A stretch of 64,000 bases of DNA from Urbifossiella limnaea (GTDB lineage Bacteria; Planctomycetota; Planctomycetia; Gemmatales; Gemmataceae): assembly GCF_007747215.1 (NCBI RefSeq), contig NZ_CP036273.1:3022322-3086321 (forward strand). Reading direction: 5' to 3'. The position numbers and the translations under genes are program-made. Positions 3,944-43,931 of the stretch are shown piece after piece (the first letter of the stretch is position 1; every line of letters starts with the position of its first letter). The notes below the pieces were generated by a model. It saw only the letters and a list, made by a program, of their open reading frames with translations, ran no database searches and had not been told where the DNA came from.

Positions 3944-4009
3944 AGCGGAGAGGGCGGGATTCGAACCCGCGGTAGGATTTTACTCCTACGCCGCTTTAGC
4001 AAAGCGGTG
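3944..4009 (-). repeat. Left attachment site: displaced 3' half of tRNA-Ser(GCU)
   Basis: This matches the right-end copy over 66 bp, from just beyond the discriminator base back through the T arm, variable arm and anticodon stem-loop. The 5' half of the tRNA is absent, so this is a remnant and not a working gene. There are only two differences from the intact copy, and they pair with each other in the variable-arm stem (A-U here, G-C in the intact tRNA). It is probably the chromosome's original 3' half, displaced when the element brought its own. Confidence 0.85.
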
Positions 4010-4038
4010 AACTGCACGTCCTGACGGGTTGTCCCACC

Positions 4039-4068
4039 TTGACAGTCCTTGCCAAGCACTGACAATAC
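4039..4068 (+). promoter_or_regulatory. Probable promoter of the integrase gene
   Basis: A perfect TTGACA (4039-4044) is followed after 16-18 bases by AT-rich GACAATAC (4061-4068), a passable -10 region. It lies between the left attachment repeat and the integrase start and points into the element. The same TTGACA plus 18-base layout recurs at 40712 and 42060. Confidence 0.5.
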
Positions 4069-4166: not shown

Positions 4167-5447
4167 ATGGCCCACATCCAGAAAATCGCCATCGTCCGCT
4201 GGGTCGTCTCGGTGCCCGGCGGGAAGGGGAAGAAGAAGTTCAAACGGGGGACCAAGGAGACCCCTGGGGCCGTCGCCCAGCAGACGGAGACCAAGAAATA
4301 CTACCTGTTCGACGGCGGCAAGCGGCTGCGAGCGCTGTACACGGACAAGAAGGCGTCGGAGCAAGCCCTGGCCGACTACGAGAGGGCGAAGGCACGCGGC
4401 GAGGTGGGGATGGTCGACGAGTTCTCGGCCCACTCCCAGACACCGAGTCAGCAGATGGTCGACCGGTACGTCGTCCACTTCCGGACCCAGCCCGGCAACG
4501 ACAAATACAAGGACGAGACCGTCCGTATCCTGCACGAGGTGGTCAACGCCTGTGCGCCGAACAAGCTCTCGGGCCTGACGGCCGAGCGGGTGCAGCAGTA
4601 CCTCGCGGCACTCAAGAAGAAGCCGACCAAATCCCACCCCGACCCCGGTCCTGCCGCTCCGAACACGAAGAAGAAGCACCACTCGGCAGTGAGCGGATTC
4701 ACCCGGTGGTTGTTCGAGAACGGCTACGCCCGGGAGAACGTGATGCTACGGGTGCCGGTCCCCAAGGGCGGCACCCAGCAGAAGGACAAGTTCCGCTCCC
4801 TCCGGCTCAAGGAGTTGAAGCGGCTCTTCAAGGTCGCCCTCACCCGCTGGGTTGAAGAGGCGTTGACCGTCCGGAACGGGCCCCGGAAGGGTAAGCAGGA
4901 GAAGAAGGTTCGCCCCGAGGTACTCGACGAGGCTCGCCTCCGGGGGCGGGGCAGGGCACTCGTCTACCGCACCGCCGCGCTGACGGGCTTGCGGCGGTCC
5001 GAGCTCGCCAAGGTCCGCCTCCGCTACCTCCGGAAGCCGAGGAAGCTGCCGTTTCCCATCTTCGACCTGCCGGGGTCGGTGACGAAGAACAAGAAGCCCG
5101 CGCGGCTCTGGGTGCTCCCGCGACTGGCGATGCGGTTGCGGCAGTGGGCGAAGGAGACGGGCAGGGGACCCGACGACCTGCTGTTCGACGTGCCCGGGAT
5201 TGCCGTCTTCCACGCGGACCGCGAGGCCGCTGGCATCCCCTTGCTCACCGAGCGGGGCAAGGCGTCCTTCCACTCCCTCCGCTCGGCCGGCAACGTCCTC
5301 CTCCGGAAGGCCGAGGTCCCCGTCACCACCCGCCGGCTGTTCATGCGGCACTCGGACCTCAAGCTGACCGACGCGACCTACGACGACGCCTCCCTGCTCG
5401 ACATGAAGGACATCGTCCCGAAGCTGGAGAAGTACAAGTTGGCGTGA
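4167..5447 (+). CDS. Tyrosine recombinase (integrase)
   Basis: A site-specific recombinase of 426 residues that would integrate and excise the element at tRNA-Ser. The N-terminal part is rich in lysine (probable arm-binding domain), followed by a SAM-like core-binding domain (residues about 90-200). The catalytic domain shows TGLRRSEL (first Arg near 276), a lysine after SVTKN, FHSLR (HxxR near 369-372), MRHSD and the nucleophile Tyr in DATYDD (near 404). An in-frame TTG at 4122 would add 15 residues, but those codons are the CAGCAACCA repeats, so I prefer the ATG at 4167. Neither start has a clear Shine-Dalgarno sequence. The gene reads inward from the left attachment site, as is usual for tRNA-integrated elements. 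Confidence 0.93.
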   Translation: MAHIQKIAIVRWVVSVPGGKGKKKFKRGTKETPGAVAQQTETKKYYLFDGGKRLRALYTDKKASEQALADYERAKARGEVGMVDEFSAHSQTPSQQMVDRYVVHFRTQPGNDKYKDETVRILHEVVNACAPNKLSGLTAERVQQYLAALKKKPTKSHPDPGPAAPNTKKKHHSAVSGFTRWLFENGYARENVMLRVPVPKGGTQQKDKFRSLRLKELKRLFKVALTRWVEEALTVRNGPRKGKQEKKVRPEVLDEARLRGRGRALVYRTAALTGLRRSELAKVRLRYLRKPRKLPFPIFDLPGSVTKNKKPARLWVLPRLAMRLRQWAKETGRGPDDLLFDVPGIAVFHADREAAGIPLLTERGKASFHSLRSAGNVLLRKAEVPVTTRRLFMRHSDLKLTDATYDDASLLDMKDIVPKLEKYKLA

Positions 5448-11639: not shown

Positions 11640-12223
11640 TATGCGTCGGCATCGCCCTGGCGATGAGCGAGGTCCCCGTCCTGCTCATCGAGAAGCACGG
11701 GCTCATGGAGCGGGTCCACGACCGTGGCGGCGAGCGGGAGGTGCGGTTCCTGTGGCAGGCCCGGCCGACCGTGCTGCCGGTCTGGCACGGTGGGAAGCTG
11801 AAAGTCGTCACCTGGGGCAACCGCGACCGGCGGGAGACGAAGCTGCCGCCGACCGGCTGGACGTGGCAGGAGACGGTCGAGTCGGGGTGGTGGTCCCAGC
11901 TGGCGCCCGAGGAGGTGGTGATTCCAGCGTCGTTCGGCTTTGCCAATGGGGTCTGGTTCAAGCTGAAGGTCGGCGTCCGGGGCCTGCTCGTCCACGACCG
12001 ACAGGGAAAGCCCGTCGTGTTCATGCTCACCCAGCCCGCCACGCGGTACTACGAAATCATGTGCCGGAGCGACTGGGCACCAGTTTTGGTGGATGAGGTC
12101 ATCTGGCGGCTGACGCCGCTATTTGAGACAGGCTCGCGGCGGGTTATCATCCGGACCATGCCCGACGATGTCGCCCCGGTTCTCGCCATCTTTGACCGAC
12201 TTGCGCCACAATTGGTCCGATAA
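11636..12223 (+). CDS. Possible diverged SRAP (YedK/HMCES)-like protein
   Basis: 195 residues from a GTG that overlaps the previous stop codon; a methionine at 11663 is an alternative. The order of segments recalls the SOS-response-associated peptidase fold: PVWHGGKLKVVTWGN (compare WGLxPxW), then VVIPASFGFANGVWF (compare CLIPADGFYEW), then YYEIMCRSDWAPVLV (compare HxRMPxIL). SRAP proteins crosslink to abasic DNA through Cys2. Here the first codons give M-I-C, so the cysteine is at position 3, and the conserved histidine is missing. The match is weak and made from memory; a separate conserved family is equally possible. Confidence 0.45.
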   Translation: MICVGIALAMSEVPVLLIEKHGLMERVHDRGGEREVRFLWQARPTVLPVWHGGKLKVVTWGNRDRRETKLPPTGWTWQETVESGWWSQLAPEEVVIPASFGFANGVWFKLKVGVRGLLVHDRQGKPVVFMLTQPATRYYEIMCRSDWAPVLVDEVIWRLTPLFETGSRRVIIRTMPDDVAPVLAIFDRLAPQLVR

Positions 12224-20148: not shown

Positions 20149-20736
20149 CTACGGGGCGAGCGTGGGGTCCCCCAGTATCTCAGCAACGGCCCGCTGCACC
20201 CGCCGCTTCCGGTCCGCCGAGACGGGGACTCCCGCTAGCATCATCAAGTAGAACGGGCGCAAGTCGAGAGGCAGCTGCTGGTCGATGAGCAGGGAGAGCT
20301 CGGAGCCGATGGCCTCGGGCTCGACCGACGACGGGGTCGTCATCCCCAGGATGGGCTCGATGCCGAGCGGCCTTGCGACGTTGGCCTTCGCCTTGTTCCG
20401 CGCCAGCCACTTCGCGTACGGGCGGCAGTGCTCGCCGTCGGCGCAGGGCGTCCCCTCGTGACAGCTTCTGCACGGTGGGTCTCGTCGGCTGACGTGGTCA
20501 CGATAGTAGTTGAGTGCCCGGTTCTTGGCATTGGTCATCAGGAAGCTCTCCAGGCGGCGGTTGGGGTCGTAAGCCGGGATTGCCTCAAGACTCCAGACGA
20601 TTACTTGTTGTGAGAAGTCCTCGGGCGAGCCGACGTGGGTGCCGAACTTGCGGTACAGGACCTTGGCGGCGTGAGCGGTCGCGGCGAGGAACTCGGCCTC
20701 GCTGATAGTCGGAGGCAACGTCACCTCGACGACCAC
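20149..20736 (-). CDS. Sigma-70-like factor with cysteine cluster
   Basis: 195 residues. Residues about 35-85 read as sigma region 2: EDFSQQVIVWSLEAIPAYD, RRLESFLMTNAKNRALNYYRDHV. Directly after comes an insert with four cysteines and a histidine (CRSCHEGTPCADGEHCRPY), likely to bind a metal. A short region-4-like stretch follows (LPLDLRPFYLMMLAGVPVSADRKRRVQRAVAEIL). The cysteine insert is unusual and could make promoter choice respond to redox or metals. The GTG start lies inside the 3' end of the upstream gene (16-base overlap), implying coupled translation. Probably directs RNA polymerase to element promoters. Confidence 0.65.
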   Translation of the reverse strand: MVVEVTLPPTISEAEFLAATAHAAKVLYRKFGTHVGSPEDFSQQVIVWSLEAIPAYDPNRRLESFLMTNAKNRALNYYRDHVSRRDPPCRSCHEGTPCADGEHCRPYAKWLARNKAKANVARPLGIEPILGMTTPSSVEPEAIGSELSLLIDQQLPLDLRPFYLMMLAGVPVSADRKRRVQRAVAEILGDPTLAP

Positions 20737-25999: not shown

Positions 26000-26356
26000 A
26001 TGTCCGACCCCTTCATGTCCGCCCTGCTCGGTGCCCGCGAGGTCAAGGCGTCCGCCCGCGTCAAGCACGGTAACGAGACCCGCACCATCGTCATGCGGGA
26101 CACCGTCCCGACCGACCTGTCCGACGGGGCGTTCATGGACGCCGCCCGCTCGGGCGGGGTCAACCTGTCCGTCCGGGTCAACACGTCGGACGACCGCGCC
26201 CGCACCATCACCGGCAAGGACGTGCGGGGCGCCGCCGCGGCGTCCGCTACCGGGGCCGTGCTCGGGTACGTCGCGGGCGAAGTGCCGGACGCGGTCAAGC
26301 GGCGGGGCCGGGCGACCCCGTCCGTGAACGGGACGCCGGCCGAAGCCCAGTCGTGA
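26000..26356 (+). CDS. Hypothetical protein
   Basis: 118 residues starting MSDPFMSALLGAREVKASAR. A beta-rich region with TRTIVMRDTVPTDLSDGAFM and VNLSVRVNTSDDRARTITG is followed by an Ala/Gly-rich helix (GAAAASATGAVLGYVAGEV). GGAGG lies seven bases before the ATG. No family recognised. It and the next gene are more GC-extreme than the rest of the element. Confidence 0.6.
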   Translation: MSDPFMSALLGAREVKASARVKHGNETRTIVMRDTVPTDLSDGAFMDAARSGGVNLSVRVNTSDDRARTITGKDVRGAAAASATGAVLGYVAGEVPDAVKRRGRATPSVNGTPAEAQS

Positions 26357-26444
26357 CCCGCCCGCGGAGTGGTCCCGGCACGCCCGCCGGGACTAACGCG
26401 CCGTCCGGTCACAAGCCCGGACGCGGGAACCCTGGAGTCTACTC

Positions 26445-26960
26445 GTGCGATACAACCCCCGCGGCAGCATCGTCCGCACGATGCGACTGACCGACCGTGA
26501 GACGACGGACGACGGCGCGGAGGTCGTCCGCACCATCTCCGGCGCCGGCGTCATCGTCCGCATCCAGCCGGCCGTCCCGGGGATGAAACCCGGCGCCGTC
26601 CGTCGGGCGTTCGTCCGGGCCGCGGAAGCGCTGGGGTGCGTCCCGACCGCGGTGGAGTTCAACCACGGGCACTACGACGCCGCCGGGAAGCCCATCAGCG
26701 ACGGCGCCCCGTCGGCGTATCAGGTCATCGGGAACGTGCCGGACCTGTTGCGGCTCGTGGAACACTTCTCCGTTTCGGGCTGGCACTACGCCATGTCCGT
26801 CCCGGTGCGGGTGAACGCCCAGGGCGCCGGCCCGGAAAAGGTCCGTCCGTCTTCGGGAAGTGCGTTCGGAAAACCCGAGACCGTCCGCGGAACCGCGGCC
26901 CAGCTGTACCGCGACCGAACCGACCGGCACGCCGCCGCGGTCAAGGCCGGCGAGTTGTAG
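26445..26960 (+). CDS. Hypothetical protein
   Basis: 171 residues from a GTG with GGAG seven bases upstream. Features include VVRTISGAGVIVRIQPAV, GAVRRAFVRAAEALGCV, and VPDLLRLVEHFSVSGWHYA, suggesting a small alpha/beta domain. The C-terminus is basic and low-complexity. Its transcription terminator appears to be the hairpin now split from it by the insertion sequence at 27000. Confidence 0.55.
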   Translation: MRYNPRGSIVRTMRLTDRETTDDGAEVVRTISGAGVIVRIQPAVPGMKPGAVRRAFVRAAEALGCVPTAVEFNHGHYDAAGKPISDGAPSAYQVIGNVPDLLRLVEHFSVSGWHYAMSVPVRVNAQGAGPEKVRPSSGSAFGKPETVRGTAAQLYRDRTDRHAAAVKAGEL

Positions 26961-26999: not shown

Positions 27000-28496
27000 C
27001 AGGCCATTCACGGTGACGCATCCCGGTCGTAAGCCGTCCGCTGGCAGGGACTTGGCCAAGCCAGGGAGAGGGCGCGCCCATGCTGTTCGGTGGGGTCTTC
27101 GAGCGGTTCCTAGAGGAGAGCCCGCTCAGCGTGATGTCCCGGGCGACCATCGAGCACGCCCTCTCGGCCTCGGCCCTCGACGCGCTGTTCGACCGGACCG
27201 CCGAGCGCGGGTACACCCGGGAGTTGCTGTTCTCCACGACGGTCGATCTGATGACCCTGGTGGTCGGCGGCAAGGCCCTCCACGTCCAGGCCGCCTACCG
27301 GCACCTGCGGGACCGCGTCCCGGTCACCCTCAAGTGCGTCTACGACAAGCTCCGGAACATCGAGACGGGCGTGTCCGCGGGGCTGGTCGCGCACGTGTCG
27401 GGCCGGTGCGAGGGGCTGATCACCGCGCTGGGCGGGGGGTGCAAGAGCCTGCTGCCGGGCTACCGGGTGCGGGTCCTCGACGGCAACCACCTGGCCGCCA
27501 CCCAGCGGCGGCTGGGCGTCACCCGGGGGCACACCGCCGGCCCCTTGCCCGGGCAGAGTTTGGTCGTGCTCGACCCGGCCCTGATGCTGGTCACCGACAT
27601 CGTCCCGTGCGAGGACGCCCACACCCAGGAGCGGGCGCTGATCGACCAGATTGTGCCGCTGGTGCGGGAGCGGGACGTGTGGGTCGCGGACCGCAACTTC
27701 TGCACGGCGGAGTTCCTGTGTGAGGTGGCCGCCCGGCGGGCCTACGTCGTCATCCGACGCCACGGGAACCTGAGCGTCGAGGCCGAAGCCGGGTACGGGG
27801 CCGAGGTCGCGACGGACCGGGGCTGGGTGGGCGAGCGGCGGGTCTGGGTCTGCTGGGGTGGGGCGCGGTTGGTGCGCCTGCGGCAGGTGCGGGTGCGGCT
27901 GCGGGCGCCGACCGCGGACGGGGACGCGGAGGTGGAGATCCTGACCAACCTGCCGGCGAAGGTGCCGGCCAAGAAGGTGGCCGAGATCTACCTCAAGCGG
28001 TGGAAGATCGAGGGGGCCTTCCACGAGTTGACAGTCGCCTTGAACTGTGAGGTGAACACCCTGGGGTACCCCAGGGCCGCGCTGTTCGGGTTCTGCGTGG
28101 CGGTGGCCGCGTACAACGTGCTGGCCGTACTGAAGGCGGCCCTGCGGGCGGTGCATGGTGAGAAGAAGGTGCAGGAGGAGGTGTCGGGGTATTACCTGGC
28201 GCTGGAGTGGGCGATGGTGTACGCGGGGATGATGATCGCCCTGCCCGCGTCGGAATGGGAGGCGTTCGGTCCGATGCCCAGCCCGGAGTTGGCCGGCCAC
28301 CTCCGCGAGTGGGCGGGCAAGGTCGACCTTGGGAGGATCAAGAAAGCGCCGCCCCGGAAGCCGACGAGGACGGCGACCCGACGGATCAAGGACAAGAGCC
28401 CACATGTTTCCACGGCCCGGTTGCTCGACGAGGGGAAGAAGACCCGTCAGGCGAAAGTCAGCCGGAATCCGTGAGTCTCACACCGTGAATGGCCTG
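27000..28496 (+). mobile_element. IS4-type insertion sequence with intact ends
   Basis: 1,497 bp bounded by perfect 16-bp inverted repeats, CAGGCCATTCACGGTG (27000-27015) and CACCGTGAATGGCCTG (28481-28496), flanked by an 11-bp target duplication. It carries one full-length transposase gene. Intact ends, gene and duplication indicate a recent, probably still active copy. It inserted into the stem-loop that follows the gene ending at 26960. Confidence 0.9.
27080..28474 (+). CDS. IS4-family DDE transposase
   Basis: 464 residues. The catalytic acids can be placed: D in VRVLDGNHLAATQRR, D in VWVADRNFCTAEF, and E in the YREK-type motif IYLKRWKIEGAFHELTVAL. The beta-rich insertion typical of IS4 transposases lies between the second D and the E. 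A basic C-terminus (PRKPTRTATRRIKDK) follows. AGGGAGAGG lies upstream of the ATG. The gene fills the IS almost completely. Confidence 0.92.
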   Translation: MLFGGVFERFLEESPLSVMSRATIEHALSASALDALFDRTAERGYTRELLFSTTVDLMTLVVGGKALHVQAAYRHLRDRVPVTLKCVYDKLRNIETGVSAGLVAHVSGRCEGLITALGGGCKSLLPGYRVRVLDGNHLAATQRRLGVTRGHTAGPLPGQSLVVLDPALMLVTDIVPCEDAHTQERALIDQIVPLVRERDVWVADRNFCTAEFLCEVAARRAYVVIRRHGNLSVEAEAGYGAEVATDRGWVGERRVWVCWGGARLVRLRQVRVRLRAPTADGDAEVEILTNLPAKVPAKKVAEIYLKRWKIEGAFHELTVALNCEVNTLGYPRAALFGFCVAVAAYNVLAVLKAALRAVHGEKKVQEEVSGYYLALEWAMVYAGMMIALPASEWEAFGPMPSPELAGHLREWAGKVDLGRIKKAPPRKPTRTATRRIKDKSPHVSTARLLDEGKKTRQAKVSRNP

Positions 28497-28886: not shown

Positions 28887-29738
28887 ATGGCGAAGGTACG
28901 TCCCAGGAAGGCGACGGTCAATGTCCGTGTCGAGACGAACTCCCAGGTCAGCATCACCGTTCGAGTCAAGTCTGAGCAGGAGAGGTTGGCGTTGAAGTTC
29001 GGCCAGGGCAACGCGAAGCTCTCGCAGGCCATCACCACGTTCAGCCTGCCCGCCGGCCACAGCTGCCCGTTCGCGCGCCAGTGCCTGAGCAAGTCGGACC
29101 GCGGAACCGGCATCATCAGGGACGGGAAGCACGTCCGCTTCCGGTGTTACGCCGCCACGATGGAGGCGCGGCGCCCCTCGGTGCGGCGGGCGCGGTGGCA
29201 TAACTACGACCAGCTGCGGGCGTGCCGGTCGGCCGAGGAGATGGCCCGGCTCATCCTCGACTCGCTGACCCCGTTCGCCGGGTGGGTGCGGGTCCACGAC
29301 TCCGGCGAGTTCTACTCGCAGGTCTACTTCGACGCCTGGGTGTTGGTCGCCCAGACCCGGCCGAGGACGACCTTCTACGCCTACACGAAGGCGCTCCCGT
29401 TCTGGCTCCAGCGGCTCGCCCTGGTCGGTGACGGGTACGAGCCGGGCGCCGTTCCGAACCTCGTGCTGACGGCCTCCCACGGCGGGACGCACGACCACTT
29501 CATTCGGGAGCACCGGCTCCGGTCGGCCAGCGTCGTGTACTCCCAGGTCGAGGCCGACGACCAGGGCCTGGAGGTCGACCACGACGACACGCACGCGATG
29601 GAGCACGGGTACGACTTCGCCTTGCTCTTGCACGGCCAGCAGCCGGCCGGGAGTGAGGCCGCGAAGGCCGCGCGGGCTCTGCGGGACGCCGGGTTCAGCG
29701 GGTACGGCAAGTCGCGGTTCCCCTTGAGCGTCATCTAG
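28887..29738 (+). CDS. GP88-like phage-type protein
   Basis: 283 residues. The conserved core matches the GP88 family first named from mycobacteriophage: LKFGQGNAKLSQAITTFSLP, AGHSCPFARQCLSKSD, RFRCYAATMEARRPSVRRAR, then WVRVHDSGEFYSQVYFDAW and PNLVLTASHGG. Several conserved cysteines suggest a metal site. The biochemical role of GP88 proteins is not established; they occur in phages and other mobile elements. The ATG at 28887 has GGAGAAG upstream. It follows a strong hairpin that could attenuate it. Confidence 0.75.
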   Translation: MAKVRPRKATVNVRVETNSQVSITVRVKSEQERLALKFGQGNAKLSQAITTFSLPAGHSCPFARQCLSKSDRGTGIIRDGKHVRFRCYAATMEARRPSVRRARWHNYDQLRACRSAEEMARLILDSLTPFAGWVRVHDSGEFYSQVYFDAWVLVAQTRPRTTFYAYTKALPFWLQRLALVGDGYEPGAVPNLVLTASHGGTHDHFIREHRLRSASVVYSQVEADDQGLEVDHDDTHAMEHGYDFALLLHGQQPAGSEAAKAARALRDAGFSGYGKSRFPLSVI

Positions 29739-36919: not shown

Positions 36920-37954
36920 TCAAGCCGCGAGCCACCTCGTCACCTCCGCGGCCGGAATCTCGCCCACGTCCTTGTACCCACTCGGCGGATGCCGGACGGT
37001 CGCGCTGACGCCTTCCCGACGGAGCAAGGTCACAATCGACGCGGCGGCGCGGGTGCCGGCCGGGTCGTTGTCGAACGCCACCACAACGGGCTTGTTCAGG
37101 ACGGCGAGCTTGAGTGCCTGCGGCACGGAAAGGTCGGTCCCGAACCCGGCGACAGCGACGACGCCCGCCTCGGCCGCGCGGAGCACGTCCGTGACGCCCT
37201 CGACCAGCAGGACGAACGGGCTGACGGACCGGACGGCCGCGGCGTAGTTGAACAGGTAGTCGCCCTTCGGAAAGCCCTGGGGGAACCACCACCTGGGCTC
37301 CCCCCGCGCGCAGCTGTCGGCCGGGTGGTGGCACTTCGAGCAAGTGCCGCAGGGCGGCTTCGTCGAGCGGTAGACGGCGCCGACGCAGGCGTGGCCGCGG
37401 TCGTCGTACACGGGGGCTACCGCCCACCCGTACCTCCGGGACTCCCCGATGTCGTAGCGGTCGAGCACGGCGGGCGAGAACCCCCGGCTCAGGAAGTACG
37501 GGGAGGGGAGGAGGAGCCGCCGCCGGACTTCCGCACGGGTCAGCGACAGGGTCGGCCGCGTCGGCCGCTCAGCGGGTTGGCGGACGGCCGTGGGGCGGTC
37601 GCCCTCGCGGGCGAGGAAGTCCTCGACGAAGGCGACGGCCTTGGCCATCGTCGCCGGCCGGTCGGGGTCGCCCGTCAGCGCCCCTCGGACCAGCCCCAGG
37701 AGGTTCCCCTTCAGCTTCGCGGCCTTGTGACACCTGTGGGAGTGGCAGGCCCAGTAGACGGGGAACTTCTCCCCGTCGGTCCCCACCACGAAGTTCGTGT
37801 CCGCCCCCTTGTGGACCGGGCACCGGCCCCGGAAGCGGTCCCCGCCCGGGTAGCCCTTCACCTCGCACCCGAGCTCGGCCAGCAACTCGTCCAGTCGGCC
37901 GGACGCCAGCACGGCAGCGGACAACTCGTTGTTGGCCGCGTTCCAGTTCTCCAT
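36920..37954 (-). CDS. DnaG-like primase (CHC2 zinc finger and TOPRIM)
   Basis: 344 residues. The zinc-binding domain shows RCPVHKGADTNFVV and YWACHSHRCHK (residues about 44-80). The TOPRIM domain shows LLVEGVTDVLRAAEAG with the catalytic Glu, and VVAFDNDPAGTRAA with the metal-binding DxD-type acids (residues about 240-300). A second cysteine group (CGTCSKCHHPADSC) lies between them. It is about half the length of chromosomal DnaG and lacks the helicase-binding C-terminal domain, as in phage and plasmid primases. It would lay RNA primers for the element's own replication. AGGAG precedes the ATG. It is the last gene of the minus-strand replication block. Confidence 0.85.
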   Translation of the reverse strand: MENWNAANNELSAAVLASGRLDELLAELGCEVKGYPGGDRFRGRCPVHKGADTNFVVGTDGEKFPVYWACHSHRCHKAAKLKGNLLGLVRGALTGDPDRPATMAKAVAFVEDFLAREGDRPTAVRQPAERPTRPTLSLTRAEVRRRLLLPSPYFLSRGFSPAVLDRYDIGESRRYGWAVAPVYDDRGHACVGAVYRSTKPPCGTCSKCHHPADSCARGEPRWWFPQGFPKGDYLFNYAAAVRSVSPFVLLVEGVTDVLRAAEAGVVAVAGFGTDLSVPQALKLAVLNKPVVVAFDNDPAGTRAAASIVTLLRREGVSATVRHPPSGYKDVGEIPAAEVTRWLAA

Positions 37955-38192: not shown

Positions 38193-38849
38193 CTACCCGG
38201 CGATTTTCCGGCTCACCCCGTAGAACGCCCGCAGCATTGCGATGGCCGCGTTGTGCCGGCGGCGGACGGTCCCCCGGTCGAGCCCCAACGCGACCGCCAC
38301 CTCCCGGAGCGAGTACCGCTCCCAGTACGTCATCCGGACCACGACGAACTCGTCAGGGGCGAGTCGACCGAGGGCCTCGGGGAGGGCGTCGACCCACTCC
38401 CGCTCGACCCGGTCGTAGGGGCTCCCCCCGTCCCGCCGGAGCCGCCGCTCGGCCCCGGGCGTGAGTTCCTCCCGGCGAACCCTTCTGCGCCGCCGCTTGG
38501 CCTCCCGCCGGAGCCGGTCGAGGACCCGGTACTCCAGCTGGGCCTTGAACAGGTTGGCGAAGTGGCCCCCCAGCGGGAGCCGGTCGTGGCACTTGGCAGG
38601 GTCGAACGTCCGAAACAGTCCCCGCGGCCGCGACCCAGGGAAGCCGAGGGTCGTGTACATCGCCTCGACGAACTCCTCCTCGGTGAGGCGGTCGCGGAAC
38701 CGGGGGTAGACCGTCTTGAAGGCGAGGTTGAACAACCGCAGGGGGTTGGGTGGCGCCCACCGACACCGCTCGGCCGAGTAGTAGTCTGCAAACTCCCGGT
38801 ACAGCCGCTTCCTCGCCGCGGCCGACGCATGGTTCGTCTGGCTCATCAA
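38193..38849 (-). CDS. Sigma-70 family RNA polymerase sigma factor
   Basis: 218 residues. Region-2-like helices lie between about 30 and 125 (HFANLFKAQLEYRVLDRLRR and a basic run). Region 4 is clear at the C-terminus: ALGRLAPDEFVVVRMTYWER followed by the helix-turn-helix YSLREVAVALGLDRGTVRRR. It is an ECF-size factor without an anti-sigma neighbour. Its start overlaps the stop of the AAA+ ATPase gene by four bases, so it is made together with the replication proteins and may direct transcription of the element. Confidence 0.8.
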   Translation of the reverse strand: MMSQTNHASAAARKRLYREFADYYSAERCRWAPPNPLRLFNLAFKTVYPRFRDRLTEEEFVEAMYTTLGFPGSRPRGLFRTFDPAKCHDRLPLGGHFANLFKAQLEYRVLDRLRREAKRRRRRVRREELTPGAERRLRRDGGSPYDRVEREWVDALPEALGRLAPDEFVVVRMTYWERYSLREVAVALGLDRGTVRRRHNAAIAMLRAFYGVSRKIAG

Positions 38850-39835
38850 GCTGACACGCTCGTCCCGGCCTCCGTCTCACCGGCCGACAGCTGAGACACT
38901 TGAGACAGCTGAGACGCGGCCGTCCCGACCAGGGCCAAGGCCCTGTACAGCTCAGCCCGGGACTTCCCCGTCTCGGCCTGCCATGCCACAAGTCGCTCCG
39001 GCGCCGGCAGATGGGCGATGCGGCCGGCCACCTCGACCTCCTGGGCGTTCCTCTGCGCGCGGACACCGAAGCCGCCCAGCGGAGCAACCACCCGCTCCTT
39101 CATCCGGCTCTCCAGCAGGTCGAGCCAGTGTGTCACCGACGACCCGTTCTCGAACTGGATGCGGTCCTTGAACGTGTTGACCAACAGGCGCAGGTCGAGG
39201 TTCCGCCGCAGCCGACTCGACCGAGCGATGATTTCCTCGGCCACCTCCGAGCACTCGTCCGGCGACAGCGCGTATGGCCCGTGGTCGTGCCCCTTCCGGG
39301 CGATGACCCGCATCAGCGCCGCAACCTCTTCGTTGGTAGGGAGATACTGCAAGCACGGAACGCGGGTCTTGATGGCCCGCAGCTGCGGGAGGTCGTCGAG
39401 CCCGCAGTTGGCCACCAGGATGATGCCGCCGGTGAAGACGAACTCGTCGCGGAGGGGGCCGGTCTGCCAGCACACCAGCCTCTCCTGCTTACCGTCCCGG
39501 CCGACCTGCCCCCAGAGGGCCGACCGCAGAACGCCGGACGTGGTCTTGTCCGCGAACATGGCCTCGGCGTCCTCGATGACGTGGACGGCGTCGGGGAAGT
39601 CCCGAAGGAGCTTGAACAGGCCCTTGCCCGTCAACCGGCTGTTCGTCAGCTTGTAGGGCGTGCCCAGTTGCTGGAGGGTCTGCTCGACCGTGTAGCTCTT
39701 GGAGGTGCCGCCCTCACCCCACAAGTAAAACCCGGTCTGATACCCCTCGGCCACGCCCTGGACCCTGTCCCGGATGAGTTGCTGCTTGTGCTCCAGGGAC
39801 TCCAGCAGGGCGGCGTCCCGGTCGTCGGTCGTCAA
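38846..39835 (-). CDS. AAA+ ATPase, helicase or loader-like
   Basis: 329 residues. Walker A: YLWGEGGTSKSYTVEQ (residues about 38-53); Walker B: AVHVIEDAEAMF (about 86-97); sensor 1: GGIILVANCGLDDL (about 137-150). A region resembling sensor 2 with RRNLDLRLLVNTFKDRI follows. The C-terminal tail is Ser/Ala-rich. Being encoded with a primase, it is likely the element's replicative helicase or a helicase loader. A TTG start is supported by AGGAG five bases upstream. Its stop overlaps the sigma-factor start (ATGA). Confidence 0.75.
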   Translation of the reverse strand: MTTDDRDAALLESLEHKQQLIRDRVQGVAEGYQTGFYLWGEGGTSKSYTVEQTLQQLGTPYKLTNSRLTGKGLFKLLRDFPDAVHVIEDAEAMFADKTTSGVLRSALWGQVGRDGKQERLVCWQTGPLRDEFVFTGGIILVANCGLDDLPQLRAIKTRVPCLQYLPTNEEVAALMRVIARKGHDHGPYALSPDECSEVAEEIIARSSRLRRNLDLRLLVNTFKDRIQFENGSSVTHWLDLLESRMKERVVAPLGGFGVRAQRNAQEVEVAGRIAHLPAPERLVAWQAETGKSRAELYRALALVGTAASQLSQVSQLSAGETEAGTSVSA

Positions 39836-40050: not shown

Positions 40051-40473
40051 TCACCACCGGTCGCGGTCGGGCACGTCGGCGCCCGGAATCCCGCGGGTGA
40101 ACGGCAGGTACTCCTCGGTCCGCTCGACGTGGTGGAAGGTGGCGTAGCCGCTCGCGGTGAACAGCCGGACCTGCCCGTAGCTCCCGGCCTCGATGTCCCA
40201 CCCGTCCGGCAGGACCGCGGCGAGGTAGGACTTCGTCTCGCACCACACCTTTGCCACGAGCGACTCGTTCTCGACCTCGACGCCGCCCTTGAACATGGCG
40301 ACCCGGAGGAGGTCCAAGTCGTCGTGCATGGCGTCGTAGTCGGCCTCGACCATGTCGATGCCGGCCCGCAGCAGGACCTCGAACACGGTCCGCTCGGCGT
40401 CCACAGCCTGAACTTCCTGCTCATTCTCCCTCGCGCTCGTCCTCAAGCTCTTGTCCCTCCAGTAGTTGCGCAC
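40051..40473 (-). CDS. Hypothetical protein heading the replication operon
   Basis: 140 residues from a GTG. Begins MRNYWRDKSLRTSAREN and continues with helices (TVFEVLLRAGIDMVEADYDA) and strands (LPDGWDIEAGSYGQVRLFTA). No family recognised. It is first in the minus-strand order 40473 to 36920 that includes the ATPase, sigma factor and primase, so a role in replication control is possible by position only. Confidence 0.55.
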   Translation of the reverse strand: MRNYWRDKSLRTSARENEQEVQAVDAERTVFEVLLRAGIDMVEADYDAMHDDLDLLRVAMFKGGVEVENESLVAKVWCETKSYLAAVLPDGWDIEAGSYGQVRLFTASGYATFHHVERTEEYLPFTRGIPGADVPDRDRW

Positions 40474-40711
40474 CCCGGCCCAGGCGGCGTTGTTCCGCTG
40501 GAGCGCACGGCCCCGAGGGCCTACGAGGTGCTGGTGTGGTTGTTGACCCGAATCGAGCCGACCGGCCGATTGCGGCAGGGCTCGTTCGTCGAGGTTTCGC
40601 CTGATGGTAACCTGACTTTGAGGTCTGTCAACTAGCTCCCGCGGCTAAATCGACCGCGAGCGTCGCAGCTGACTCGCGTCGACGCGAGCGGAGAAGTCGT
40701 TTCCACCCCCA
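40474..40711. other. Divergent intergenic region of the replication block
   Basis: About 240 bases between the leftward replication operon and the rightward ParB-like gene. No gene is supported. This would be a natural place for a replication origin or partition site, but I see no clear iterons. Confidence 0.35.
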
Positions 40712-40741
40712 TTGACAGATTCACAACCCGTGGTCTGATAC
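40712..40741 (+). promoter_or_regulatory. Promoter P1 upstream of the ParB-like gene
   Basis: TTGACA (40712-40717), an 18-base spacer containing AACCCGTGGTC, then TGATAC (40736-40741). It is almost the same sequence as the promoter at 42060-42089. The predicted transcript would have a leader of about 37 bases before the ATG at 40785. Confidence 0.7.
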
Positions 40742-40784
40742 AGGGGTCTACGGACACCCCGTGGCCCCCGTCCAAGGAGAGAGA

Positions 40785-41867
40785 ATGCCGAAGAGGAGCG
40801 AGACCATCAGCGGCCGAGAACCGGCGGGCCGAGCGGTCCTGCCCGTCCGTGGGTACCTCTTCTTGGCGGAACTCCGGATGGAAGTCTCCGCCCGGGTCCG
40901 GGTGAAGCCCTGCCCGGACACAATCACGCGGTACGCGGAGGTACTGGCCGACGACCAGAGCTTCAGCCCGGTGGTGGTCTTCCGCGACCCGGACGGCGTG
41001 CTCTGGCTGGCCGACGGGTGGCATCGGGTCGAGGCCGCGAAGGTGGCCGGGCGGGACAAGCTCGTCTCGGAGATTCACGAGGGAAGCGAGGCGGACGCCT
41101 TCTTGTACGCCGCCCAGGCCAACCTGAAGCACGGGCTGGCTGCGACCAAAGCCGACCGCAAGCAAGTCGCCACCCTCCTGCTCAGGAGCCCGGAGTGGGG
41201 GGCGTGGGGCGACCGGGAGATTGGCCGTCTGAGCGGGCTGAACGACAAGACGGTAGCCACACTCCGTAAGGAGCTATCCGCGGAAAATCCGCAGAAGCCA
41301 TCCGCGGAAATTCCGCAGATGAGGGTTGTGCGCCGGAAGGGCACCACCTACACGATGGCGACGGGTCAAGCAAAGACGGCGATACCAAACACCAGCGGTG
41401 CGTCCGTCTCGAACTCACCCAATACGGACCAGCGACCCGAAGTCCCATCCACTCCGGTGGTTGAGGGACCGGCCGACCCTGCCCCGCCGATTCACGACGC
41501 CGCGCCCGAGCTCGTGTCGGCCCCACCGAGCGGACCACCCGTCGATGTTGCCCCGCCCGCGCCCGCGGCACGGACCCGGGACTGGGCGACGGACCCGTTG
41601 GACATCGACTTCATGATTGACAGCGGGCTGCTGTTCGAGCTCAACCGGAGGGTGCTTCACCCATTCGGAATCCGCTTGGTCGTCCGGGTTGCCGACACCG
41701 GGGAGAAGTCGTGGGGGTTGAAGGACTGTCGGTCCGACCCGCGGTCGTTGTCGTTCCCCCCGGCAGTACAGGCGCAGGCGGAGGAGAAGTTCGCCCGGTT
41801 CCTTGAGGCGTTCGGACGGGCGCAGCTCGACCGGCCGGCGCGAAGAGAAGAAAGTATTGGGTCGTGA
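40785..41867 (+). CDS. ParB/Srx-like nuclease-fold protein
   Basis: 360 residues. Residues about 30-150 fit the ParB N-terminal and HTH regions: TITRYAEVLADDQSFSPVVV, WLADGWHRVEAAKVAGRDKL (compare the DGxHRxxA box), VLYAAQANLKHGL-type box AFLYAAQANLKHGLAATKAD, then the helix-turn-helix DREIGRLSGLNDKTVATLRK. A Pro/Ala-rich linker of about 110 residues separates a C-terminal domain (DPLDIDFMIDSGLLFELNRR). It could act in partition, in gene regulation or as a replication accessory. No ParA is beside it. AAGGAGAGAG precedes the ATG, and promoter P1 lies just upstream. Confidence 0.75.
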   Translation: MPKRSETISGREPAGRAVLPVRGYLFLAELRMEVSARVRVKPCPDTITRYAEVLADDQSFSPVVVFRDPDGVLWLADGWHRVEAAKVAGRDKLVSEIHEGSEADAFLYAAQANLKHGLAATKADRKQVATLLLRSPEWGAWGDREIGRLSGLNDKTVATLRKELSAENPQKPSAEIPQMRVVRRKGTTYTMATGQAKTAIPNTSGASVSNSPNTDQRPEVPSTPVVEGPADPAPPIHDAAPELVSAPPSGPPVDVAPPAPAARTRDWATDPLDIDFMIDSGLLFELNRRVLHPFGIRLVVRVADTGEKSWGLKDCRSDPRSLSFPPAVQAQAEEKFARFLEAFGRAQLDRPARREESIGS

Positions 41868-42059
41868 CGTGGCGGCACCGAATACATCACGATTGGCATG
41901 GTGATGCCCGCCACCGCTCGACGGGCCGATGGCGTGTTGGGCGACAGCTCCGAGCCGCAATGCTTATAAATGTAATCGGTTAGGACCGATTTCGGCCCCG
42001 TTATTCAACGCATCTAATCACGAGTTTCTCGTCCTCGGCCCACCTTTTATTTCAACGTA
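41868..42059. other. AT-richer spacer with an inverted repeat
   Basis: About 190 bases that are clearly less GC-rich than the surroundings. AATCGGT-TAGG-ACCGATT (41974-41991) is a perfect 7-bp inverted repeat with a 4-base loop, a possible terminator of the ParB-like gene or an operator. Confidence 0.45.
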
Positions 42060-42089
42060 TTGACAGATGCGGAAACCGTGGTCTGATAC
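42060..42089 (+). promoter_or_regulatory. Promoter P2 upstream of the HExxH-HTH operon
   Basis: TTGACA (42060-42065), an 18-base spacer containing AACCGTGGTC, then TGATAC (42084-42089). Over 30 bases it differs from promoter P1 mainly at a few spacer positions. The first gene starts 254 bases downstream, leaving a long untranslated leader. Confidence 0.7.
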
Positions 42090-42342
42090 GGACGGCGACT
42101 ACCCGTACGAATCCACCCAACGCCCTCCGGTTCGAGCCTGAAGTCCACACTCCGGCTCGTCGCAGCCGTCGCGGGCCGTCCCCGCGCAGGGTGAGTCCTC
42201 GGCCCGACCTCCATCGTCGGTGGTAGCATCGGCCCTGGCGCCACAGGGGCATCTGACAGAACTTGAGCAGCGAGGTCATCCACGAGGCCCATGGGCCGAC
42301 GTGCCCCGCTGCGCGCCTTCATCCCCCTACCTGGAGAGCATC

Positions 42343-43161
42343 ATGCTCAAGTACGCTTGTTCGGATACGGCGATGGACACCGCTTACCACGAGGCCGGCC
42401 ATGTGGTCGCCGGGATGGGCCTCGGGTGCCGGCCGGAGGAGGTTTACATCCGCGAGGACTCGTCCGGCGGGGTGAGGTGGCTGGACTGGGCCGAGGGCCA
42501 GTCCATCGCCCAGGTCCGGCGGGAGCTCGTCCACCTCGTGGCCGGTCCGCTGGCCGAGTTCCTCCACGAGGCCGAGGAGTCGATGTACACCCGCTCGCGC
42601 TGGGCCGACCGACTTGACCCGGGCGACTGGGAGGTGTCGTGGCGCTTGCTGAGCGCCCGCATCCGCCGCGGCGAGACCGGGGACGAGGCGGCGAGGTGCG
42701 ACACGGCCGAGGCCTGGTTCCTCGCCCGGGAGGTGTGCCGCCGGTTGACGTTGCACGACGCCGGGAGGTGGGACGAGCGGCGTGTACGGGCCGACATCCT
42801 GCACCAGCACGGCCGGGCCGACTTCTACTGGGTGACCGGGCCGTTCGTCGCCGTCCGCGAGGGCGACCCGTCGGCTGACGAGTTCGAGATGTTGGGCGAC
42901 GAGGAAGACAGCGAGATGTCGTTCCGGCCCACCGGCCCCATCACCCCGCCCGAGGTCGCCCCGGCCGAGGTGCTGGCGGAAGTCGTCCGCGCCGAGCGGT
43001 GGGCCGAGCGGCTGTTGCGGCGGCGGTGGGCGGCGGTGACAGCCGTGGCCGAGGCCCTCTACCGGAGCAAGAGCGGGTCGTTGACGGGGAAGCGGGTGCA
43101 GACCCTCATCTCCTCGGCCGACCGCTCGTCTCGAAGCAGGGCCAAGAGGGCGTCAGCATGA
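42343..43161 (+). CDS. HExxH-motif protein (zinc-peptidase-like)
   Basis: 272 residues. The N-terminus has AYHEAGHVVAGMGLG, the HEAGH zinc-peptidase signature seen in FtsH-type and related proteases, followed by a helical domain with HLVAGPLAEFLHEAEES, whose acidic residues may give the third zinc ligand. The rest is helical and acidic, with a basic end. GGAGAG is placed before the ATG at 42343. Its TGA overlaps the ATG of the HTH gene. A protease next to a DNA-binding regulator near an attachment site recalls the ImmA-ImmR switch of some integrative elements, but the sequences are not obviously related. Confidence 0.65.
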   Translation: MLKYACSDTAMDTAYHEAGHVVAGMGLGCRPEEVYIREDSSGGVRWLDWAEGQSIAQVRRELVHLVAGPLAEFLHEAEESMYTRSRWADRLDPGDWEVSWRLLSARIRRGETGDEAARCDTAEAWFLAREVCRRLTLHDAGRWDERRVRADILHQHGRADFYWVTGPFVAVREGDPSADEFEMLGDEEDSEMSFRPTGPITPPEVAPAEVLAEVVRAERWAERLLRRRWAAVTAVAEALYRSKSGSLTGKRVQTLISSADRSSRSRAKRASA

Positions 43162-43745
43162 GCCGAGTGAAGGAGGACTTGCTCCACGCCGAGGAGGACG
43201 CCGAGTCTGCGGCGTGGACGGCGAGCCCGGAGGGTCGGGCCGAGAAGGAACGAGCGACCCGGGCACAGGCGGCGGCTGACGCGGAGCGGGCACGTCGGGA
43301 GCAAGCCTGGGCGTCCGAGCGCCCGGTCGAGTGGGCCGAATGGCAGCGGTTGCAGCCCCTGCTCGTCCCCGTCATCGACTTCGGGGGCGACATGCGGTTC
43401 GACTTCGACAACTTCCTGATGGAGGTCGGTCGAGCCCCCTCGCCTGCTCACCGGGTCGTCCGCAAGGCCAAGGCTCTCCCGTACAAGCAAGGGAACCTGC
43501 GCTGGAAGGCGGCAACCCCGCCGAAGACTAACCCGTCACCGGCGCCTTCAAGGGCTGCGGCCCAGGCTGCGAGCGACTTCCTCACCAAGCAGGAGGTTGC
43601 AGACCGCCTTCAGGTCTCGACTCGGACGGTGTCCCGGTGGAGGTCTGAGGGCCTGCTGAAGGAGTTCCGCCGGGGGCAGGTTCTCCGCTTCAAGCTGGAG
43701 GACGTGGAGGCGTTCGAGGCGAAGGGTCGGAGTGGGCGCCGATGA
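43158..43745 (+). CDS. HTH protein, excisionase-like, next to the right attachment site
   Basis: 195 residues. A long charged N-terminal helix (AEEDAESAAWTASPEGRAEK, AAADAERARREQAWASERPV) leads to a C-terminal HTH of the excisionase/MerR type: DFLTKQEVADRLQVSTRTVS, RWRSEGLLKEFRRGQVLRFK, LEDVEAFE. Excisionase-like HTH domains commonly bind arm regions next to att sites; here the CAGCAACCA repeats begin at the very stop codon. Start overlaps the previous stop (ATGA). Likely a directionality factor or regulator of integration. Confidence 0.75.
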   Translation: MSRVKEDLLHAEEDAESAAWTASPEGRAEKERATRAQAAADAERARREQAWASERPVEWAEWQRLQPLLVPVIDFGGDMRFDFDNFLMEVGRAPSPAHRVVRKAKALPYKQGNLRWKAATPPKTNPSPAPSRAAAQAASDFLTKQEVADRLQVSTRTVSRWRSEGLLKEFRRGQVLRFKLEDVEAFEAKGRSGRR

Positions 43746-43838: not shown

Positions 43839-43842
43839 TTAG

Positions 43843-43931
43843 CGGAGAGGGCGGGATTCGAACCCGCGGTAGGGTTTTACCCCTACGCCGCTTTAGCAAA
43901 GCGGTGCTTTCGACCACTCAGCCACCTCTCC
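43843..43931 (-). tRNA. tRNA-Ser(GCU)
   Basis: 89 bases reading GGAGAGGTGGC at the 5' end and CCTCTCCG at the 3' end. The anticodon loop TTGCTAA gives anticodon GCU. A long variable arm, as expected for tRNA-Ser, is present (GTAGGGGTAAAACCCTAC), and the T arm has GGTTCGAATCC. The CCA end is not encoded. The 3' 64 bases are shared with the left attachment remnant, so this tRNA is probably a hybrid: chromosomal 5' half and element-supplied 3' half. Confidence 0.95.

Follow-up and report, generated by a model that had tools for sequence, protein, structure and literature searches.

Two promoter-like sequences of 30 bases near one end of a mobile element of Urbifossiella limnaea form a real, constrained pair. 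The element, about 39.9 kb in size, is integrated in a tRNA-Ser gene and lies within the window, by which the whole analysed stretch of 64,000 nucleotides is meant. The sequence TTGACAGAT-N8-CGTGGTCTGATAC occurs twice, both times on the forward strand, and the copies, termed P1 and P2 (Table 1), share 26 of their 30 bases. Twin sequences at exactly these places had been noticed in a sequence-only reading of the DNA. They were confirmed, and the pattern TTGACAGATN{14,20}TGATAC, with two matches in the window, was not found in any of 100 dinucleotide shuffles. The interpretation tentatively preferred, with a chance close to even, is that of two functional promoters kept matched, from which a ParB/StrR-like regulator and an operon for an HExxH and an excisionase-like protein would be expressed together.

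The likeness of the two boxes begins one base upstream of TTGACA and ends abruptly outside the box. It is made up of two blocks, ATTGACAGAT and CCGTGGTCTGATAC, which are identical over 10 and 14 contiguous bases, respectively. Between TTGACA and TGATAC, 14 of 18 bases agree; the almost identical 18-base spacer described earlier is more precisely a pair of identical blocks separated by a diverged middle. If a spacer of 16 bases is considered, 12 of 16 positions agree (P ~1.6e-4 for one random spacer pair of the same composition). All four differences are located in the middle of the spacer within 7 bases, for which P = 0.018 was calculated for four random differences in 30, the 7-base span having been chosen post hoc with the data already seen. 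The flanking sequences are unrelated, with 19 of 60 identical positions upstream and 35 of 120 downstream, about 29% being expected from composition. Since the flanks are unrelated and the differences cluster in the middle of the spacer, the -35 and -10 faces of the boxes look constrained.

Searching for TTGACA-N12-GTGGTCTGATAC with at most three mismatches yielded the twins as the sole matches in the window and, in the whole 7.8-Mb genome, one further site with three mismatches. A third copy with fewer than three mismatches is present neither in the window nor in the rest of the genome. A relaxed scan gave six candidates, the twins and four weak ones, compared to one to eight in ten shuffles, and the best of the weak candidates, at 12192 (+), begins inside a predicted gene.

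Table 1 Features of the element and of the region around the twin boxes
Feature	Position	Strand	Remarks
att repeat, left copy	3944..4009		in tRNA-Ser(GCT) 3947-4039 (-); 66 nt, 97% identical
Tyrosine-type integrase	4167..5447	+	just inside left end; PHROG integrase 5.8e-23
Toprim DNA primase	36920..37954	-	Pfam and PHROG profiles
ECF-type sigma factor	38193..38846	-	overlaps AAA-like gene; TIGR02937 50.3 bits (cut-off 42.9); Sigma70_r4
AAA-like protein	38846..39835	-	P-loop GEGGTSKS (motif by eye); no Pfam family; element-family marker
Small ORF	40051..40473	-	first of leftward operon after PL; DUF6878 below cut-off
PL, divergent third promoter	40604..40631	-	TTGACA-N16-TACCAT; leads into replication operon
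Perfect 16-bp palindrome	40673..40688		CTCGCGTCGACGCGAG; between PL and P1; candidate operator
Twin box 1 (P1)	40712..40741	+	predicted register: -35 TTGACA 40712-40717; TGG 40731-40733; -10 TCTGAT 40734-40739; then AC
ParB-like protein	40785..41867	+	first gene after P1; PHROG ParB-like 2e-8; StrR/ParB homologues
Twin box 2 (P2)	42060..42089	+	predicted register: -35 TTGACA 42060-42065; TGG 42079-42081; -10 TCTGAT 42082-42087; then AC
Leader from P2 to HExxH start	42090..42342	+	~250 nt
HExxH (HEAGH) protein	42343..43161	+	first gene after P2; homologue in G016
HTH_17/excisionase-like protein	43158..43745	+	overlaps end of HExxH gene; HTH_17 44.5 bits (cut-off 27)
att repeat, right copy	43841..43906		in tRNA-Ser(GCT) 43842-43931 (-); 66 nt, 97% identical

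Direct repeats in a tRNA gene at both ends, with an integrase beside one of them, characterise the element as a tRNA-integrated mobile element. Gene calling relied on a home-made script based on codon usage, and gene starts are approximate. Profile searches covered 20 of the 52 predicted element proteins for Pfam, ten for PHROGs and seven for NCBIfam. P1 is followed after 43 bases, which include AAGGAGAGAG, by the ATG of the ParB-like gene. Homologues of the encoded protein are named ParB N-terminal domain protein or streptomycin-operon regulator; no Pfam ParB match was obtained for it, and a PDB sequence search returned nothing at E up to 1. A structure model of this protein has three helices at residues 122 to 167, a block with pLDDT of ~72-92 in an otherwise low-confidence model, and a central HTH is likely to be present according to the model. 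Models computed from the single sequence were too poor for fold searches, both for this protein (pLDDT 43) and for the sigma factor (pLDDT 54). ParB-fold proteins are often encoded by orphan genes on mobile elements and some act in transcription, as reported in PMC12704722. Judged by its relatedness to StrR/ParB-type regulators, the protein appears to be a reasonable candidate regulator. For the HExxH protein, no family match was detected in Pfam or PHROGs. The HTH_17 protein downstream matched the PHROG excisionase profile (6.4e-10), scored 28.7 against a cut-off of 28.8 with TIGR01764 (excise domain) and gave marginal matches only in a PDB sequence search; its gene ends 95 bases from the right att repeat. 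A structured leader upstream of the HExxH gene was considered and rejected, the fold of 42095-42345 having a z of +0.74 and the sequence no Rfam match. An AT-richer spacer between the two units had also been proposed. Such a region exists, 42000-42099 having 49% GC whereas the remaining 100-base bins between 40400 and 42499 range from 59 to 79%, but it is short.

The position of the -10 region was re-evaluated. TGATAC after an 18-base spacer had been assumed, and TCTGAT after 16 bases is preferred here. The textbook -10 sequence is TATAAT, which is matched by TGATAC at two of six positions and by TCTGAT at four of six. Sites of the type TTGACA-N12..22-TNNNAT were detected 32 times in the genome, compared to nine with a reversed control, from which it follows that some of the matches may be due to chance. 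With the three element sites left out, 29 host sites remained, and a spacing of 16 was the commonest (8 of 29; P = 0.0035), followed by 17 (six sites), 22 (five) and 18 (four), with two sites each for 13, 14 and 15. The narrower pattern TTGACA-N14..20-TANNAT yielded 11 sites, none with the control, and TTGACA-N10..18-TGN-TNNNAT seven, again none with the reversed pattern. The twins account for two of these seven, and another, TTGACA-N16-TAGCAT with CGTGG before the -10, is located at the head of an ORF. Thus, TCTGAT preceded by TTGACA and a 16-base spacer with TGG at its end matches host usage more closely than TGATAC at a distance of 18 bases. The hexamer TCTGAT itself may be usable in this host, as suggested by a single example, TTGACA-N17-TCTGAT, the end of which is 37 nt from a downstream ATG with GGAGGG; a second site, TTGACA-N22-TCTGAT, overlaps a start codon and was discarded. 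The -35 of P1 and P2 is an exact TTGACA, and PL has TTGACAGA and the 16-base spacing in common with them. The A at the second -10 position is absent from TCTGAT of the twins and present in five of eight host sites with N16; its absence is partly offset by TGG and by the host site with TCTGAT after N17. A default promoter scan requires this A and did not call the twins. Without the usual A, the twin promoters are probably weak alone.

The sequence-only reading had suggested looking for the same box in related elements. The AAA-like protein, which may mark a so far undescribed mobile element family within the same bacterial family, was used to find them. Forty-two matches including its own were obtained in 27 of 95 genomes of the family, the own genome included, and wide regions, often partial contigs, were taken around 14 of the other 41. 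In most of these regions no other gene of the element was found near the AAA-like gene. Two elements, G009 and G016, are clearly related, each having matches (E up to 1e-4) to 17 of the 52 genes predicted for the element. The 14 regions and L094, one distant locus encoding a ParB-like homologue and the only one detected in IMG/VR, were examined for pairs of TTGAC sites; G026 has no TTGAC site at all. No pair reaching 26 of 30 was found in any of these regions, the best pairs having 18 to 23, and the pair with 23 of 30 in G016 is located at the 3' ends of two coding-like stretches resembling each other. In G009 the HTH_17 gene is divergent from the AAA-like gene and adjoins the integrase gene; neither a ParB-like nor an HExxH gene nor the box is present between the HTH_17 and AAA-like genes. 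In G016 the HExxH homologue is preceded by TTGACAAGATGCAAAGTGTAATTTATTAT, an unrelated TTGACA-17-TATTAT promoter unlike the box. Together with the AAA-like protein, many further genes of the element are shared by the closest relatives, whereas the box is not. Since it is absent from related regions, the box belongs to this element or to a narrow lineage and does not characterise the family as a whole. Spacer divergence in otherwise similar elements had been named in advance as refuting the idea; the result does speak against a family-wide box and is compatible with a lineage-specific one.

As a credible site the box was found in the own genome only among 392 genomes of the phylum. A looser pattern with 18 fixed positions and up to three mismatches matched in 74 of 95 family genomes; those beyond the own genome are regarded as background, all having two or three mismatches among the matches listed. 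With 23 fixed positions, three of 392 phylum genomes were hit, the own genome, G463 with two mismatches, both in the -35 part, and G201 with three mismatches and a position inside an ORF. The box was not detected in viral_contigs, and genome_contigs yielded two matches, a Lederbergia and a Ruminococcus record. HExxH and AAA-like proteins were not found in IMG/VR, nor was the AAA-like protein among plasmids.

Several other features of the element were observed in passing. In both G009 and G016, a second sigma-like protein (20149-20736, minus strand; Sigma70_r2 above cut-off) is conserved along with its neighbours, unlike the ECF-type sigma factor. A Gp88 family protein (28887-29738, plus strand) is 73% identical in the G009 element, and a DDE transposase-like gene is located within the element at 27080-28474 (+). 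A Type-P5 twister ribozyme (26364-26420, plus strand; 48.1 bits, gathering cut-off 37.6) sits between two small element genes, 26000-26356 and 26445-26960; no Rfam match was obtained for the corresponding gaps of G016 and G009.

According to the preferred interpretation of a matched promoter pair, RNA polymerase, most likely with the host primary sigma factor, would bind TTGACA and, beyond the 16-base spacer with the extended -10 TGG at its end, TCTGAT. The other bases that are conserved (GAT behind the -35, CCG ahead of TGG and AC behind the -10) could set promoter strength or allow a common activator to act. In the circular, excised form, the order calculated from the coordinates is P2, HExxH gene, HTH_17 gene, attP and integrase gene, all in one direction, with about 320 bases between the HTH_17 stop and the integrase start. 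Transcription from P2 would then continue past the excisionase-like gene and across attP as far as the integrase gene, by which control of excision would be tied to the same signal. Sequence, uniqueness, gene order and spacing preference are what we observed; promoter activity, the sigma factor, co-regulation, the activator and read-through are what we infer. The twins resemble RpoD promoters with an extended -10 in TTGACA, near-consensus spacing, TGN before the -10 and the position of P1 upstream of a ribosome binding site and ATG; they differ in lacking the second-base A and in the conservation of spacer bases between copies. By -35 and spacing, the primary sigma factor is probably the reader. 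Against a primary-sigma pair stand the distance of P2 from its gene and the missing box in related elements.

The ECF-type sigma factor of the element is another possible, dedicated reader. PL would be transcribed with the primary sigma factor into the leftward operon, which includes the sigma gene, and the sigma factor would then read the twins, a regulon of two promoters, as TTGACA-N15-GTCTGA, by which the ParB-like regulator would be switched on along with the excision operon. This cascade is unlikely, with an appreciable remaining chance. The sigma factor is genuine by its NCBIfam score, and PL has an A at the second position of its -10, TACCAT, which the twins do not have. GTCTGA, as present in the twins, resembles an ECF-type -10. 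Sigma factor and box were each found in the own genome only: homologues of the sigma factor (E up to 1e-12) were detected in none of the 94 other family genomes and none of the 391 other phylum genomes, with up to 31 and up to seven best candidates scored per genome, respectively, so that the sigma factor, like the box as a credible site, occurs in one of 95 and one of 392 genomes. In PMC8103513, E. coli RpoE is described to require a C at the -10, in line with the cascade, but of the ECF hallmarks given there, AAC at -35, CGT at -10 and autoregulation for around 55% of ECFs, the first and the last are not seen here. The -35 is TTGACA without AAC, and no further box is present upstream of the sigma operon; at the expected place of the -10, GGTCTGAT has GTC, not CGT. 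The twins resemble ECF promoters of group IV (RpoE-type) in the GTCTGA-like -10, the strict conservation of two blocks and an ECF sigma factor encoded by the element. The second sigma-like protein is an unlikely reader, since G009 and G016, in which it is conserved, are both devoid of the box. From the conserved spacer, a repressor or dedicated sigma site had been predicted. The box is element-specific, promoter-placed and conserved beyond the hexamers, from which a shared regulator or sigma specificity may fairly be deduced, but it lacks a dyad and an autoregulatory copy, and relatives do not have it. A fuller version of the cascade resembles lytic phages with late sigma factors: an early primary-sigma promoter would serve the replication operon and the ECF sigma gene, and the latter a private regulon of two promoters for partition or regulation and for excision, with the integrase reached via attP in the circle. 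It is also to be considered unlikely.

Slightly less probable still is a neutral copy or coincidence, i.e. a promoter stretch copied once whose remaining likeness has no regulatory meaning. There are two copies only and no conservation in any relative, and the 11 N16 sites offer 55 spacer pairs, the next best of which already agrees at 10 of 16 positions. Yet the flanks are at background identity next to two blocks of identical bases, the differences are clustered, and neither the rest of the genome nor the other phylum genomes yielded a further credible copy.

The spacer bases could also constitute an operator in both promoters, bound by a repressor (the ParB-like protein, the HTH_17 protein or another) in a lysogeny-like switch, as had been proposed. 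Conservation of the spacer in two promoters of one element and the presence of DNA-binding proteins in both units would fit, as would the arrangement upstream of P1. The divergent PL/P1 pair with the palindrome in between comes closest to a switch; the window contains five palindromes of at least 16 bp, and this one occurs once and is not repeated at P2. Inverted-repeat symmetry of the boxes is not above that of shuffles (257 and 217 of 300 shuffles equal it), and the missing dyad argues against a classical dimeric repressor operator. In temperate phages such as lambda, PL and PR are paired early promoters with repressor operators in the spacer. The element likewise has two promoters with like spacers, but the twins are co-directional instead of opposed, and neither a CI/Cro-type repressor nor virion genes were found among the 20 element proteins scanned with Pfam, ten of them also with PHROGs. 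The switch is weakly supported and quite improbable.

Among known systems, elements integrating into tRNA genes with a tyrosine recombinase and an HTH_17 gene are similar in having the integrase at one end, the HTH_17 gene at the other and, here, 66-nt att repeats in tRNA-Ser, but differ in that the control module of this element contains HExxH and ParB-like proteins. No promoter mapping for comparison was found in the literature on this bacterial lineage, which is not to claim that none has been printed. The matched pair provides two precise promoter predictions for the module that controls this mobile element. As an arrangement it is useful though fairly ordinary, and the result is orderly rather than surprising. 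Co-regulation of the two, if it holds, would point to the genes deciding between staying integrated and excising, and if the ECF sigma factor reads the twins, the element would have a minimal regulon of its own.
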